Shown here in pieces: positions 16,740 to 32,125 of a DNA stretch of 35,107 nt. The translations under genes and the position numbers were made by a program. Origin of the DNA: a virus; IMG/VR virus record IMGVR_UViG_3300044568_000303, positions 1-35,107 of that record. One strand, written 5' to 3'. Below the pieces are notes generated by a model. It did no database searches, was not told where the DNA came from, and was given only the letters and a program-made list of their open reading frames with translations. Position 1 is the first letter of the stretch, and the number at the start of each line of letters is the position of its first letter.

Positions 16740-17184
16740 GCCTGAGATATTCTGCAATTAGTAGGGCTTCGGCTTTGTTTATGTCCTTCTTTAACTTTAG
16801 TTTGGCTTCAGGCCACAGGTAACGTGCCATGTCTAACGATTCATTTTTGTCTGCTGTCAGGTGAAAGTGCTTTTTCCACTTCTGCGGGGTGACAAGATGC
16901 ACAGGGTATCGGGTCAACTGACAAACTGCTGAAATGACACCCACAGCACGCCCAAACGAAAAGGTAGAGCTAACCCCTTGATTCGGCATTGAATGGACTT
17001 GTTCCATGCAAATCTCTGCCCCTTCTTTGGGGTCAACTAGGCCAAGAATCCTGCTTTTGAAAACCAAGGCCAAGATGTGCTTGTCTTGGTGCTCGATGTT
17101 AAAGGCTTCCAAGTAATTGCCATGATGGTCAACTGCCCCAAGTGCGCCATTGATGCTGCCTGGGTCAATCCCGATATAAATCAT
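16705..17184 (-). CDS. RuvC-like Holliday-junction resolvase
   Basis: A 159-aa RNase H-fold nuclease. MIYIGIDPGSINGALGAVD gives the first strand with catalytic Asp7. EICMEQVHSMPNQG supplies Glu61. The last motif KKDINKAEALLIAEYL supplies Asp134 with Glu139, in place of the usual D-H-x-x-D. The length matches RuvC (about 170 aa). It would resolve branched or recombining phage DNA before packaging and complements the annealase/exonuclease pair in the rightward operon. It starts in an ATGA overlap with the gene upstream. Confidence 0.82.
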   Translation of the reverse strand: MIYIGIDPGSINGALGAVDHHGNYLEAFNIEHQDKHILALVFKSRILGLVDPKEGAEICMEQVHSMPNQGVSSTFSFGRAVGVISAVCQLTRYPVHLVTPQKWKKHFHLTADKNESLDMARYLWPEAKLKLKKDINKAEALLIAEYLRHELNGIQAKNI

Positions 17185-17420
17185 TGATTTTCCTTAACTT
17201 TTTGCAAAAACTCTGCTTGGATGCCGTTGTAATAGCCATAAATGTCATTCTCCAACTCTTTCACCCTGTGCCAAGCATGGTGTTTGAACCCCTGAGTTTT
17301 CGCCATCCTGACAAGATGCAATAAGGTCTGATACCGATGTTCCTCGAAGGTCGCCGCAAACCCATAAGGCTCTTGTGACTGCGAGATTGGAATAGTTGTT
17401 GATTCCATTTTTGATTTCAT
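17181..17420 (-). CDS. Small DUF7696-like helical protein (frame B)
   Basis: Ends in an ATGA overlap with the RuvC-like gene. From the ATG at 17420 it reads MKSKMESTTIPISQSQEPYG, then FEEHRYQTLLHLVRMAKTQG and a helix with YYNGIQAEFLQKVKENQ. The middle resembles short phage proteins with an E-x-x-R-x-x-x-x-V-R-x-V-L core (DUF7696 type). It overlaps the frame-A gene 17245-17451 for most of its length. The start is uncertain, because upstream in-frame TTG at 17441 also exists. Confidence 0.5.
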   Translation of the reverse strand: MKSKMESTTIPISQSQEPYGFAATFEEHRYQTLLHLVRMAKTQGFKHHAWHRVKELENDIYGYYNGIQAEFLQKVKENQ

Positions 17421-17451
17421 CAAGTAGTTGGTTTGCTTCAATTCTGGTCAT
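17245..17451 (-). CDS. Small phage protein with MTRxEAxxLLD start (frame A)
   Basis: An ATG at 17451, directly after a TAA (the stop of the overprinted frame across the methyltransferase), opens 68 codons: MTRIEANQLLDEIKNGINNY, then LAVTRALWVCGDLRG. This start is characteristic of short phage proteins of the M-T-x-x-E-A-x-x-L-L-D ... T-G-D-L kind. The tail (CQDGENSGVQTPCLAQ) looks less natural, as if the original C-terminus was lost where frame B took over. Confidence 0.45.
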   Translation of the reverse strand: MTRIEANQLLDEIKNGINNYSNLAVTRALWVCGDLRGTSVSDLIASCQDGENSGVQTPCLAQGERVGE

Positions 17452-18271
17452 TTAAGATTCTCCAAGCTGTTGCTGCACACAATGGAACTTGTCCATTTCC
17501 AATGGCTTTAAGTCTGTCCACTCTAGAGGCCATCCCATCAACCACTCTGTCCACGTTGGGTTCAGCTTCCCACCATTGTGCAGACCCGATACCTGCTCTC
17601 CAAGGTTTCCCTTGCCTCTGTCCCTCAAGGCATGACGAGAATCCTGTGCTTTTGGAGTTCCCCACATATTGCGACTTGGGTATTTCTGTGCAAATCCCGC
17701 TAGATTCATTGTGTACCTTTTCCCCGCCAATGTTGATGGGCTGTTGTGATTTGCGCCACCGGTGCTGCTTGTTGGGGTTGGAACTAGCGACAATCCAGAT
17801 TCGTTCTCGTTTGTGCTTTGCACCAATGTCGGCAGCAGATATAACTCCCCACCGACTGTCATACCCCATTGCGGTAAGGTCTGCAAGGACTCGTTCAAGT
17901 CCTCTAGTAACGAGCATTGGACTGTTCTCCACAAATGCATATCTTGGTCGAACCTCGCCAATAATCCGTGCCATTTCTCGCCACATTCCGCTTCGTTCTC
18001 CATCGAGTCCATCTCCATTTCCTGCAACTGAGATGTCCTGGCATGGAAATCCTCCAGATACAACGTCAACAATTCCTCGCCAAGGTTTGCCATCAAAGGT
18101 TTGTACGTCATCCCAAATCGGGAAAGGCGGGAGAAGTCTGTCATTTTGTCGGGCGCACAGTACGCTTGCGGGATAGGGTTCCCACTCGACTGCACAGACT
18201 GTTCTCCATCCAAGGAGTTTTCCCCCAAGTATTCCTCCACCAGCACCTGCGAAAAGAGCCAACTCATTCAT
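17438..18271 (-). CDS. dcm: DNA cytosine-5 methyltransferase
   Basis: A 277-aa enzyme with motif I LFAGAGGGILGG (6-17), motif IV GGFPCQDIS with catalytic Cys77, the ENx motif as FVENS (113-117, usually ENV), motif VIII AKHKRERIWIVA (151-162) and motif IX/X SRVDRLKAIGNGQVP (249-263). It transfers a methyl group from SAM to cytosine. The target-recognition part (about 165-235) is short. There is no cognate restriction enzyme, so it is an orphan, likely protecting phage DNA or regulating expression. The start overlaps the DUF1376 stop by ATGA. A second long frame lies almost fully inside it. Confidence 0.9.
   Translation of the reverse strand: MNELALFAGAGGGILGGKLLGWRTVCAVEWEPYPASVLCARQNDRLLPPFPIWDDVQTFDGKPWRGIVDVVSGGFPCQDISVAGNGDGLDGERSGMWREMARIIGEVRPRYAFVENSPMLVTRGLERVLADLTAMGYDSRWGVISAADIGAKHKRERIWIVASSNPNKQHRWRKSQQPINIGGEKVHNESSGICTEIPKSQYVGNSKSTGFSSCLEGQRQGKPWRAGIGSAQWWEAEPNVDRVVDGMASRVDRLKAIGNGQVPLCAATAWRILNDQN
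17452..18267 (-). CDS. Overprinted 271-aa frame inside the methyltransferase gene (putative)
   Basis: Same strand, different frame, open from ATG 18267 (the two starts share ATGAATG) to a TAA at 17452 that directly abuts the ATG of the next gene at 17451. The protein is Trp-rich: MSWLFSQVLVEEYLGENSLD ... LSRFGMTYKPLMANLGEE ... CGEKWHGLLARFDQ ... a Thr-Pro-rich centre ... LNPTWTEWLMGWPLEWTDLK. I recall similar Trp-rich sequences ending in N-P-x-W-x-E-W-L-M-G-W-P among phage hypothetical proteins, which suggests the frame is conserved, but I cannot verify that. Conservation of the methyltransferase motifs could produce it passively. Confidence 0.4.
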   Translation of the reverse strand: MSWLFSQVLVEEYLGENSLDGEQSVQSSGNPIPQAYCAPDKMTDFSRLSRFGMTYKPLMANLGEELLTLYLEDFHARTSQLQEMEMDSMENEAECGEKWHGLLARFDQDMHLWRTVQCSLLEDLNESLQTLPQWGMTVGGELYLLPTLVQSTNENESGLSLVPTPTSSTGGANHNSPSTLAGKRYTMNLAGFAQKYPSRNMWGTPKAQDSRHALRDRGKGNLGEQVSGLHNGGKLNPTWTEWLMGWPLEWTDLKPLEMDKFHCVQQQLGES

Positions 18272-19041
18272 ACCACCTTTCCTTTCAAACCATCACGAAT
18301 CATCCTGAGAATCTCAGGGTTAGGCTTGGCAGTCTTGTAATCTTCATCCAACTTTTGCAGGGCAGGGTCACGGGATGAGCTTGAGGGTACTGTCACCTTT
18401 GCAATGTCCGCAGGGTTTAAACGCTCTTGACGCTGATTCCTCACCCAATTACGCCATGTTGCTTGCCAGTCCAGCTTGACACCAGCAGCACCAGCTTTAG
18501 CAATCCAGAAGTCTTTGAACTGTTCGCCCACTTTTTGAGGATTTAGGTCAGGTCGTTCCTGTCTTGCCCAACTTTCCCAATCTTCTGGCAAAACCCAATC
18601 AGCAGAAAGGCGTGAGCCTTTGCTTGCTCTACTAATTGGTTTATGGTTATTGGTTATTGGTTCTTGGTTGCCTTTTGATTGGGTTTCATTTGGTAACCTA
18701 GAAGAAACCGAATGGGTTTTAGATGGCCTGCCACCTAGCTTTCCATTGCGTCTATTCTTTTCAGCATTCTCTTGGTAGTCCAGTATTTCGACCCTGATGC
18801 GCTTTTGAAAGTACCCATCATCAGACTTTTCAAAGAACTCTGACAACACATTTTCAAGAGCTTGTTGCTCATCAATAGAACCCAAACGTAACCGCCTAAA
18901 AACCACTTGGGTTTCCAATGGAATTGGCTTTTCATCTAGGTATTGCCAATCTATCAACTGCCTGTAGACACCATGCTCAAGGGTTGATAAGTGGCTTGTG
19001 TCTTTTCTGTAATCTGCGATGTTGAATTTATAATAGTGCAT
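18268..19041 (-). CDS. DUF1376 replication initiation / replisome organiser protein
   Basis: A 257-aa protein. The N-terminal 90 residues (MHYYKFNIADYRKDTSHLST, LEHGVYRQLIDWQYLDEKPI, then EFFEKSDDGYFQKRIR) are a classical DUF1376 domain, found in phage replication proteins. It is followed by a basic linker (RRNGKLGGRPS), an Asn/Ser-rich stretch, and a C-terminal module (WVLPEDWESWARQERPDLNP, then FWIAKAGAAGVKLDWQATWR and NWVRNQ), typical of phage replication organisers. No polymerase or helicase is in the window, so this is the main candidate initiator. It overlaps the 78-aa gene by 1 nt and the methyltransferase by ATGA. Confidence 0.8.
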   Translation of the reverse strand: MHYYKFNIADYRKDTSHLSTLEHGVYRQLIDWQYLDEKPIPLETQVVFRRLRLGSIDEQQALENVLSEFFEKSDDGYFQKRIRVEILDYQENAEKNRRNGKLGGRPSKTHSVSSRLPNETQSKGNQEPITNNHKPISRASKGSRLSADWVLPEDWESWARQERPDLNPQKVGEQFKDFWIAKAGAAGVKLDWQATWRNWVRNQRQERLNPADIAKVTVPSSSSRDPALQKLDEDYKTAKPNPEILRMIRDGLKGKVV

Positions 19042-28605: not shown

Positions 28606-30837
28606 TTATTCTTTTGTAATTTGAGAAATAGTTCCACGGGTAATTTGACTTTGTGTTGGTGTAGAAGCAGATATAAATGCTTTAAATTCTCTTTGCATTT
28701 CAGGACTCATTTTTGCCATTAATGCACTTGTGATTGATGAAGATTGTTGTTTTGGCATAACCTCTAAAAAATCTGCAAGTTTTTGTGGGTCAAGCATAAG
28801 ATCAGTCATCTTTGCATCCAACTGCTTTTGACTTCCTGTTTTTAATGTGTCTAAAATAGATTTAAGAATTGTTACCTTGTTACTAAGCATTGATGGAATT
28901 TGTTCGCCACCAGTAAATGCTTCTTCTCCCGCATCTTTAACACCTCTACCCATCTCAATTGCTTTCTGTGATCTTGCTAAATCAGCACGAACACTTTCAA
29001 CAGATTTAATTTGCTCTGGCGTAAGGAAGTCAGATAATGTTTCATACCTTTGAACTCCAGTAGTTCTTTTAATTAAGTCGGCTGAATTATCAACAGCCAA
29101 AGCAAATCTTCCAGCTTTTTCTGCATCAGTTAAGTTCAAACTCAATTTGTCAATCAGTTCTTGGCCAACTTCCATTTGATTGATTTTTTTGCTATGCCCA
29201 GCAAACTTAGTAAGGTAATCTGACCAAACATTATTCCCAGATGCTTTGTTAATTGCGTTATCAAGTATTTTTTTAATTGATGTTTCAACATTGGTTGCTT
29301 GCGCTCCAAATGATTGATTTCTTTGTGTCAAAAATGCTTTGATGTCATCACCAATTTCTTTTCTTACTTGATAGAGATCAAGGCTATTAATGATTCCATT
29401 AGAATCAGTTAAAGAACTAAGTTTGGTTTTTAAATTTTCCAAAGAATTTACAAGCAAACTGTTTGATCTTTCGCCAACACGACCAAGACTTTCATCAATT
29501 TTGCTAATTAATGGTTGTGTTGTTAATGGGTAAAAACCGTTATCAGTTACGCTTTTTAACTGAAATTGTTTAAAAGCAACTTCTGCTTTTCTTTGAGCAA
29601 TAGGGTCAGCAAATTCTTGAACTGCATCAGACAGACTTTTGGCAAGTTCGTAATTTTGGTTGTAACGTCCAGGGAATCTTGGTAGGCCAGGAACAGGTGT
29701 CCAAGTATTAGCTCTAACTAATGCTTGTGATTCTTCTGTAGCCGTCTTCCCTTGTGCTTGCAAATTTCTAATATACGCATTTTGTCTTTCGACAATATCT
29801 GCTTCTAATTTAGGAACAACTTGACCATAGACATTTGCTTGTTCAAGAGCAGTTTCACGCAATGGAGTAGTTTCCGCTGTTCTTGCTGCCCTTGCCGCCG
29901 CCAAATCTGCCTCAGTTCCAAATTGACCAACCAACTCCTGTTTACGAGCAGCAGCTTGTTCTTGCGATCTTTGAGCAAATTGTGGCTGTGTGCTGATTTG
30001 ACTTGCCAATCTTTGTTGTTCTTTTACAAGCCCTATGGCTGTAGGTGTATCTGATAATGCTTCAGCAGTTGTTGGCTTGCTCCCAGAAACAATTTCACCT
30101 GCACTTCTCAAAGCGGCAATTACTTTTTCTTTTTCAGAGCCAACCAAAGATTCAATATACCTTTTAGCAGCAGCTTCTTTGCTAGCGGCTGTAATTGGCA
30201 AATTAACCAATTGTTCTTTTATATAAGATAAAGCCTTTGAAGTTATAGGTATTGCACCACCTAAAAAAGCGCCAAGACCCATATTAAACAATTTATCAGA
30301 AACGTAAGAGCCATCTTCTTTGCCGCTAGGACTCAAACCACCTTGTATCAATCCACCAGACACCATGTTGCTAGATGGAATTAATTTATTAACTGGAGAG
30401 AATATTGCTCCTGTTATTTCAGGAACATCTATCCCTTCTCTGCCAACAGATGCTCGTCCTTTTTCATAAGCAGCCCTTTCTTGCATAACAAGAGCAGATG
30501 CTCCTTGTTTTATATCTTGACCAAATAATCCAGTCTTTGCCAATAGTTCATTTAAACCTAATGCTGGCTGAACAACTGCCCCTCTTAATAGGCTGTATGT
30601 AGGAGAACCAAACCCAATCATTCGACTTAAAAAATCAGGCGATTCTGTTGGTATATTTTCAGTTGGCTGATCTCCCATAAGCTGCAATGGCGCAGGAATA
30701 TTTTCTTGACTAACATTAGTGTTAGTTGATTCTTTTATAGATTGAGCAATTTTTGCCAATCTAACAGCATCTTCTTGATTGCCTTGAGCATCTGCTTTAC
30801 GCAGAGCTTGCATTACTTCATCATAAGTCGCAGCCAT
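28606..30837 (-). CDS. Large internal virion / DNA ejection protein
   Basis: A 743-aa mostly helical protein. MAATYDEVMQALRKADAQGN, then QEDAVRLAKIAQSIKES is a start seen in podoviral internal virion proteins. It then has hydrophobic Gly-rich segments (LFNMGLGAFLGGAIPITSKA) and long Gln/Ala/Glu helices. Such proteins form the ejection channel across the cell envelope. It is the third of three large genes after the tail fibre, and the most A/T-rich of the late genes. The call rests on position, size and pattern. Confidence 0.62.
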   Translation of the reverse strand: MAATYDEVMQALRKADAQGNQEDAVRLAKIAQSIKESTNTNVSQENIPAPLQLMGDQPTENIPTESPDFLSRMIGFGSPTYSLLRGAVVQPALGLNELLAKTGLFGQDIKQGASALVMQERAAYEKGRASVGREGIDVPEITGAIFSPVNKLIPSSNMVSGGLIQGGLSPSGKEDGSYVSDKLFNMGLGAFLGGAIPITSKALSYIKEQLVNLPITAASKEAAAKRYIESLVGSEKEKVIAALRSAGEIVSGSKPTTAEALSDTPTAIGLVKEQQRLASQISTQPQFAQRSQEQAAARKQELVGQFGTEADLAAARAARTAETTPLRETALEQANVYGQVVPKLEADIVERQNAYIRNLQAQGKTATEESQALVRANTWTPVPGLPRFPGRYNQNYELAKSLSDAVQEFADPIAQRKAEVAFKQFQLKSVTDNGFYPLTTQPLISKIDESLGRVGERSNSLLVNSLENLKTKLSSLTDSNGIINSLDLYQVRKEIGDDIKAFLTQRNQSFGAQATNVETSIKKILDNAINKASGNNVWSDYLTKFAGHSKKINQMEVGQELIDKLSLNLTDAEKAGRFALAVDNSADLIKRTTGVQRYETLSDFLTPEQIKSVESVRADLARSQKAIEMGRGVKDAGEEAFTGGEQIPSMLSNKVTILKSILDTLKTGSQKQLDAKMTDLMLDPQKLADFLEVMPKQQSSSITSALMAKMSPEMQREFKAFISASTPTQSQITRGTISQITKE

Positions 30838-30847
30838 AAGTACCCCA

Positions 30848-32125
30848 TTATTTGTATTTGTTTAACAAATCTTCATCAGACAAAGAATTTCCTTTGTAAA
30901 GCGGCTCTACTTTTGCAGCCTCTCTGCGCTTATCAATTCTTACTTGTGTTTTTTCTTTTGCTGTTTGTGCTGCTTTAACAAAATTATTTAATGCTTCAAA
31001 TGTTGTGTTGGTGTCATTTTTACCATAAGCAGCAAGAAACTCATTTGCAAAACGCAATACATCTTTGTCTGTTTGAACACCTTTCTCTGCGCTTACTTTT
31101 AAGTTTGTTGCCGCCTGAACAGCACGTTCTAAATTTGCATAAGCTCTACTTTCTGGAGTTGAGTTACCAGTTGCATTAGCAAGTTCATATTTACGATTGT
31201 TCAAAAATCCTAACTCCAAAGGAGCTTTGTTTGTTTTTGGGTCAATTACCAAATTTTTTATAACAGGAGCAAGAGCAGTAACTTGAGCATCTATGTTATC
31301 AATAAGTTCATTATCTTTAATTTCATCTTTAATTAATCCTGCTGACATTGGCTTGTTTGAGGCTTGAGATTGTTTGAACTCACTTTTTATTTGTTCAATT
31401 TCTTTTCTGCCATTAATCTCCATTGTCTTTAACATTGAAGCAGTAGCACCTCTTTCTTTGGCTGCTCTGGCTTCCGCATCTAGACGCTCTTGCAATCTTT
31501 CAAGTTTTGCTTCATTGTCTTTTTTAGCTTGTTCAGATTTAGCATCAAGACGCTCTTTTTGCTGTGATGCAAGTAAATCTCTTTGTGCAGCTTTATCTGA
31601 TGATTGTTGCAATGCTGTCAAAATTTTGTCTGGAGAACCATACTTGGTAACAATAGACAAAATATCAGCTTCTGTTGAATTTGGTGGCAATTTGGATAAT
31701 TCATCACGCAGGTTTTGTTCTTGTGTCAAAGACAATTCTGCTTTTTCTGCTTCAGCAGTAGTCTTTCTTTGAGTCAACAAGTTAGATTGCATTTGTCTAC
31801 CAGCATCAGCAATAGCCATAGCAAACTCAGGGTCTCCATTCTGAGCAGCCATTCGAGCTACTTGCATAAAAGATTCTGGTTTGCTTTGATCTAACTGACT
31901 AGCAAGTTGCTGTCTCATAGTAATCTTCTGTAACTGTGGGTCAACACCACCCAAAGCACCGCCAATAGCACCTGCCAAACCATAAGCACCTTGACCAATA
32001 GCAGCATTTGCTTGTTGGAAAGGGTCTAGTCTTGCAAACTCCATTGCTCTTGAACGAGCAAGGTCTTGTTGCTGTTGTTGGTACTGTTGTGGGCTTGTGA
32101 ATAAGCCTAAGATTTCTGATGCCAT
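30848..32125 (-). CDS. Internal virion / ejection protein with long coiled coil
   Basis: A 425-aa protein. The N-terminus is Gln-rich (MASEILGLFTSPQQYQQQQQ), followed by an Ala/Gly segment (GQGAYGLAGAIGGALGGVDP) able to insert in membranes. A highly charged coiled coil over about residues 190-250 (QKERLDAKSEQAKKDNEAKL and following) precedes a helical C-terminus. Composition and order match podoviral ejection proteins. No named family. Confidence 0.6.
   Translation of the reverse strand: MASEILGLFTSPQQYQQQQQDLARSRAMEFARLDPFQQANAAIGQGAYGLAGAIGGALGGVDPQLQKITMRQQLASQLDQSKPESFMQVARMAAQNGDPEFAMAIADAGRQMQSNLLTQRKTTAEAEKAELSLTQEQNLRDELSKLPPNSTEADILSIVTKYGSPDKILTALQQSSDKAAQRDLLASQQKERLDAKSEQAKKDNEAKLERLQERLDAEARAAKERGATASMLKTMEINGRKEIEQIKSEFKQSQASNKPMSAGLIKDEIKDNELIDNIDAQVTALAPVIKNLVIDPKTNKAPLELGFLNNRKYELANATGNSTPESRAYANLERAVQAATNLKVSAEKGVQTDKDVLRFANEFLAAYGKNDTNTTFEALNNFVKAAQTAKEKTQVRIDKRREAAKVEPLYKGNSLSDEDLLNKYK

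Follow-up and report, generated by a model that had tools for sequence, protein, structure and literature searches.

Two overlapping reading frames at a phage C5 cytosine methyltransferase locus: selection in both frames and a probable two-chain enzyme

The locus and its two nested reading frames

The window, by which we mean the whole stretch of viral DNA analyzed here (35,107 nucleotides, IMG/VR record IMGVR_UViG_3300044568_000303), carries on its minus strand an ORF of 277 amino acids for a C5 cytosine methyltransferase (hereafter α), which is overlaid almost throughout by a +1-frame ORF of 271 amino acids (hereafter β; Table 1). The preliminary description of this DNA had singled out these two long same-strand frames across the methyltransferase gene, and its account of them is borne out in each particular: the start codons are paired in ATGAATG, the TAA of β (17454-17452) abuts the ATG at 17451 that begins a further ORF, and the motif NPTWTEWLMGWP is found in the +1-frame protein. 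The long opposite-strand frame that it also mentioned is open in the window as well, but in relatives it holds about as many stops as expected. The ATG of β lies at +4 in 74 of the 95 non-redundant relatives of the window's group. Within the Shine-Dalgarno-like stretch upstream of the start pair, AAAGG is placed 9 nt before the ATG of α and AAGGTGG 5 nt before that of β. On the contig the methyltransferase locus is accompanied by genes for a major head protein, a portal, a Holliday junction resolvase and a primosomal protein. Directly downstream of β (17181-17451, minus strand) there are two more ORFs that overlap in different frames, of 68 amino acids (ATG at 17451) and 86 amino acids (TTG at 17441), neither of which has a match in PHROGs. 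Elsewhere on the minus strand of the window lie two large ORFs without a PHROG match (28606-30837, 743 amino acids; 30848-32125, 425 amino acids).

Table 1. Features of the overlapping methyltransferase locus, in coordinates of the window
Feature	Position	Strand	Basis
α, C5 cytosine methyltransferase with motifs I-VIII and X, without motif IX	17438..18271	-	PF00145, phrog_363, AF2 model against M.HhaI
β, +1-frame protein, proposed target-recognition and motif IX subunit	17452..18267	-	phrog_1008, +1 openness, purifying selection
GAAAGGAAAGGTGG, Shine-Dalgarno-like stretch (use by ribosomes inferred)	18273..18286	-	sequence and purine-rich upstream profile in relatives
ATGAATG, pair of start codons 4 nt apart, one for each frame	18265..18271	-	sequence; β ATG at +4 in relatives
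α residues 4-165, motifs I-VIII, catalytic core	17777..18262	-	profile matches; α-frame selection
α residues 166-236, mostly disordered by prediction, with selection on the β frame	17564..17776	-	pLDDT; substitution classes
α residues 253-274, RLKAIGNGQVPLCAATAWRIL, motif X	17450..17515	-	sequence, AF2 model, α-frame selection from residue 251
β residues 160-234, proposed target-recognition region (motifs PTP...D and WGTPKAQDSRH)	17566..17790	-	sequence motifs, β-frame selection
β residues 235-253, LNPTWTEWLMGWPLEWTDL, motif IX	17509..17565	-	nearly invariant columns; in-frame stretch of single-chain relatives
Opposite-strand open frame, 247 amino acids, TTG start, judged chance	17433..18176	+	stop counts in relatives

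The α protein matches phrog_363 (E = 3.2e-68) and, over residues 4-178 only, the Pfam profile PF00145 (E = 6.7e-32; 111.6 bits against a gathering cut-off of 22). It has the PCQ, ENV and RxR motifs, with P76 and C77, E115 and N116, and R155 and R157 invariant. The matches of both the PF00145 and the M.HhaI profiles to α end after motif VIII, and motif X is present. In the AF2 model of α (mean pLDDT 79.6) the core and the motif X helix are confident and residues 187-247 are predicted to be disordered (pLDDT about 40); its superposition on M.HhaI (Z = 24.0 over 191 residues) leaves out the small domain of the latter enzyme. As the profile matches stop at motif VIII and the following region is predicted to be disordered, the place of the target-recognition domain (TRD) and motif IX is empty in α.

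The β protein matches phrog_1008 (E = 1.4e-24), as do its counterparts in all 92 of the 92 aligned relatives, and its C-terminus is formed by a nearly invariant, motif IX-like LNPxWxEWLMGxPxGWTD. In the single-chain methyltransferases of the actinophages Raleigh, 1191A and PFR1 a comparable stretch, RL[ST]ARFVEWMMGLPxG, lies in frame directly before motif X, and a profile alignment of the C-terminal motif of β with this in-frame stretch gave an hhalign probability of 97.9% over 23 columns. PF00145 crosses that region of the PFR1 protein (P0006) in one stretch (residues 3-327, profile positions 21-312 of 324), and the canonical enzyme of Streptococcus phage SpGS-1 has LTPKECWRLQGFPDWAF at the place corresponding to the motif IX-like stretch. 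The AF2 model of β alone was poor (mean pLDDT 54), and a fold search with it recovered no known fold. Pfam and NCBIfam have no model for β, apart from one stray T4SS_TraI match (E = 0.004) in one relative. Neither the β profile nor a profile of the IX-X stretch found a match among PDB sequences; the motif IX assignment thus rests on the single-chain relatives and on position, and not on a direct match to M.HhaI.

Openness and selection in the two frames

To obtain the stop expectation the methyltransferase protein was held fixed and synonymous codons were shuffled within each gene. One set of loci (L081-L160, of which 70 remained after dereplication) had been picked by the methyltransferase frame alone, so that this sample is not biased toward an open second frame. 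Stops in the +1 frame are absent from 60 of these 70 non-redundant relatives, and 14 were observed in total against 416 expected. The gene in the window has none against 6.0 expected by shuffling (7.0 when the codon usage of the phage is applied), and in none of 5000 synonymous shuffles was its +1 frame free of stops. The avoidance of stops extends from the first codons of β onward, with 4 observed over motifs I-VIII against 485 expected. By contrast, stops in the +2 frame and in all three antisense frames of the relatives are about as frequent as expected or more so, which argues that the opposite-strand ORF is a chance occurrence; this frame has no family match and was rejected as a gene, with 4.13 stops per gene observed in relatives against 4.72 expected. 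In the canonical single-chain gene of SpGS-1 (L409, 848-1981) we observed an open +1 run of 161 codons over motifs I-VIII, longer than in any of 500 shuffles, which is either chance or a relic. The conservation of the N-terminal part of β is in part dictated by the methyltransferase motifs, as a comparison with this run indicates.

Substitutions likewise point to two constrained frames. Fourfold-degenerate sites read in the methyltransferase frame show a difference of 0.30 at 60-65% protein identity, whereas genes flanking it on the same contigs show 0.59; along the methyltransferase gene the value drops to 0.014 at α residues 242-253, under the IX/X part. The preliminary description had proposed overprinting, to be refuted by several second-frame stops in homologous methyltransferase genes or by an unreduced synonymous change in the methyltransferase frame; neither was encountered, and the proposal is supported. 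Its further suggestion that the two proteins might be functionally linked also gains support, as the second protein looks like the recognition and motif IX subunit of the same enzyme.

To determine which frame is selected at each point, isolated single-base differences between relatives (50 disjoint pairs) were sorted according to whether they are silent in one frame or the other, with all possible mutations as the reference. Over α residues 5-130 changes silent in α predominate (46 pairs favoring α and 2 favoring β at residues 5-40), and residues 131-165 are constrained in both frames. Over residues 166-250 changes silent in β predominate, with β:α pair counts of 29:1 (residues 166-200), 19:2 and 32:3 (residues 236-250). 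From residue 251 on the α frame predominates again, with 34 pairs favoring α and 1 favoring β at residues 263-277. Taken over all pairs, 90% of the changes at residues 166-235 are silent in β only; at residues 166-236 β-synonymous changes are enriched 3.1-4.0 times, with α-synonymous changes at 0.1-0.5 times. The same switch was recovered in two further sets, 30 pairs taken from genome contigs of bacteria and archaea and 34 pairs of a Lacticaseibacillus-type group, each with 22:1 in the TRD and motif IX interval; as both of these sets were found by β searches, they provide replication rather than an unbiased sample. A set of 62 canonical C5 methyltransferases from phages, relatives of the SpGS-1 enzyme, served as negative control; in none of them is the +1 frame open, and they favor frame 0 throughout (25:2 in the TRD and motif IX interval). 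Hence, the +1 frame is a real second gene, with both frames conserved and under selection, and purifying selection swaps frame along the DNA, from α for motifs I-VIII to β for the TRD and motif IX and back to α for motif X. Along the DNA the selected frames alternate in step with the succession of domains in a single-chain enzyme.

Distribution, rearrangements and the two-chain proposal

In all 396 of the 396 scored loci β overlaps a methyltransferase on the same strand and in the same relative +1 frame, and stand-alone β genes were not found among these loci, which come from annotated phages, from viral contigs and from genome contigs of bacteria and archaea. The figure counts loci and not independent genes, as several are overlapping fetches of one contig; the sole locus scored without β, L237, is the window itself, whose copy most likely lay in opposite orientation, only plus-strand frames having been scored. 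Among the hosts or sources are Acinetobacter, Pseudomonas, Vibrio, Klebsiella, Escherichia, Porphyromonas, Bacteroides, Paenibacillus, Lacticaseibacillus, Mycobacterium, Streptomyces, Leptospira, cyanobacteria and archaea. In the Lacticaseibacillus-type group β starts about 160 nt into α, and 49 of 79 members have a Shine-Dalgarno-like stretch.

Two plasmid genes were also noted. On plasmid pAQ5 of Picosynechococcus PCC 7002 a divergent methyltransferase (L406, 1845-2657) has all 270 of its +1 codons open against 2.5 stops expected, and its +1 frame holds SPEAMAMYMGFP, a motif IX-like stretch; it is probably a distant member of the overlapping α/β layout. Plasmid pAQ5 was also considered as a possible source of M.AquI, but its gene looks like a different one. 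On the archaeal plasmid pMETHO01 of Methanomethylovorans a methyltransferase (L402, 1290-2081) has LNPVWTEWLMGLPTNWTALK in its +1 frame.

Several relatives have the motifs distributed differently between the chains. In a Streptomyces phage (L168), a Spirochaetia MAG (L293) and a close relative of the window on a metagenomic phage contig (L048), α breaks off behind motif VIII, and motifs IX and X are both found in the β ORF; in the last of these an open β ORF of 428 amino acids is paired with an α of 196 amino acids (1486-2784 and 1500-2090). L048 is a case of the layout of M.AquI having arisen inside the window's own family. Two other loci (L053 and L054, the α of the latter at about 1497-2258) have an in-frame stop in the α linker that leaves α without motif X and β intact, which could be decay, a sequencing error or another split.

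Taken together, position, sequence and these natural rearrangements suggest that β is the recognition and motif IX half of the enzyme, in the absence of direct structural proof. Accordingly, we consider it very probable that the locus encodes one two-polypeptide C5 methyltransferase, with motifs I-VIII and X in α and the TRD and motif IX in β; translation and activity are inferred here. Ribosomes would most likely start at either ATG of ATGAATG, and the two chains would be translated separately from one mRNA. Frame 0 would yield α, in which a disordered linker joins the core for AdoMet binding and catalysis to motif X, and frame +1 would yield β, in which the target-recognition region and then motif IX follow a tail that overlaps the core. 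Paired, the two chains could make up the large and the small domain, which enzymes of the M.HhaI type hold in one polypeptide, with DNA sequence recognition supplied by β, and the phage may use this two-chain enzyme to methylate its own DNA, for instance against host restriction. The translation of β, its pairing with α, its recognition role and specificity and the biological use are all inferences, and the want of proteomic or ribosome-profiling support for β translation counts against them.

It is improbable that β is instead a real overprinted protein outside the enzyme, such as a regulator, a restriction inhibitor or a DNA mimic, that became locked to the methyltransferase gene by chance. 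The lack of a solved relative and of a confident fold for β is compatible with such a protein, but selection leaves α exactly over the TRD and motif IX interval where α is predicted to be disordered, the β motif recurs in frame before motif X of single-chain methyltransferases, and β takes over motif X where α is cut short. We find it harder still to credit a single canonical I-VIII-TRD-IX-X chain made by two ribosomal frameshifts, from frame 0 to +1 after motif VIII and back before motif X: the selected frame does change in exactly that order, but frameshifting does not need the openness of β from its first codons, and the conserved ATGAATG pair as well as the internal start of the Lacticaseibacillus-type β, with its Shine-Dalgarno-like stretch, speak for separate initiation. 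That there is no second gene, the +1 openness being a by-product of the methyltransferase amino-acid sequence and codon bias, can practically be set aside, for C5 methyltransferase motifs do favor some openness, as in SpGS-1, but synonymous shuffles yield about 6 stops per gene, canonical methyltransferases are not open in +1, and the substitutions of the TRD interval are predominantly silent in β and not in α.

We put at even odds the wider reading that a large share of the C5 methyltransferases of tailed phages, with hosts from many phyla, are overprinted enzymes of two chains with the TRD and motif IX in +1. The overlap would in that case protect the tie between specificity and catalysis from recombination, and the α linker, being free of selection, would allow the specificity of β to diversify. 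Such methyltransferases, now annotated as complete enzymes of a single chain, would then be misannotated. As β is mostly unannotated or carried under the methyltransferase's name, cloning of the annotated ORF alone would be expected to give no activity for many of the phage genes called 'DNA cytosine methyltransferase'. The many natural α/β pairs with varying recognition regions would offer material for studies of DNA target recognition. More generally, the locus offers two same-strand frames that overlap almost completely, over about 800 bases, each backed by strong evolutionary evidence, and a concrete reason for the overlap if the products are two halves of an enzyme. It is a clear example of selection changing reading frame domain by domain, of interest for the study of both overlapping genes and DNA methyltransferases.

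Comparison with known systems

Among split C5 methyltransferases, M.EcoHK31I has the specificity YGGCCR and M.AquI the specificity CYCGRG. Lee, Kam and Shaw reportedly found in 1995 that the small subunit of M.EcoHK31I is read from a different frame within the gene of the large subunit, and both subunits are said to be needed in vitro. The window resembles this enzyme in that α has motifs I-VIII and X and motif IX lies on a second polypeptide from an overlapping frame, the precedent for the overlap being the reported one. The larger polypeptide of M.EcoHK31I comprises motifs I-VIII and X with the predicted TRD and the smaller one motif IX, whereas M.AquI is split into motifs I-VIII and IX-X (PMC3404938). 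Unlike in M.EcoHK31I, β of the window spans nearly all of α and starts 4 nt after it in ATGAATG, and selection places the TRD in β; the prediction of the TRD in the large subunit of M.EcoHK31I (PMC3404938) would by analogy count against this placement. By the same analogy the locus of the window may work like M.EcoHK31I, formal membership being unproven in the absence of homology or activity data. With M.AquI the window shares two chains that jointly hold one set of C5 methyltransferase motifs, and its three rearranged relatives with a truncated α have the M.AquI layout itself; it differs in that motif X lies in α and not in the second polypeptide, and in the almost complete overlap of the frames.

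Pairs of actinophage genes annotated as 'DNA methylase', such as gp92/gp91 of Blue7 and 34/35 of Sebastisaurus, have a β of the same family (phrog_1008), but these pairs overlap only partly and their β carries motif X. In Paenibacillus phage Bloom both nested frames (BLOOM_56 and BLOOM_57; L408, 575-1630 and 777-1481) are annotated as DNA cytosine methyltransferase; there β starts about 200 nt inside α, and the record makes no comment on subunits. Outside methyltransferases, lambda Rz/Rz1 are nested phage genes (PMC9409062). They are comparable in that a phage gene is nested in another frame of its partner gene and the products function jointly, but their function is unrelated and the overlap is much shorter. 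None of the open-access papers found by our searches describes overprinted C5 methyltransferases as a general arrangement of phages, although single records do annotate both frames, as in Bloom, or the partly overlapping pairs, as in Blue7.
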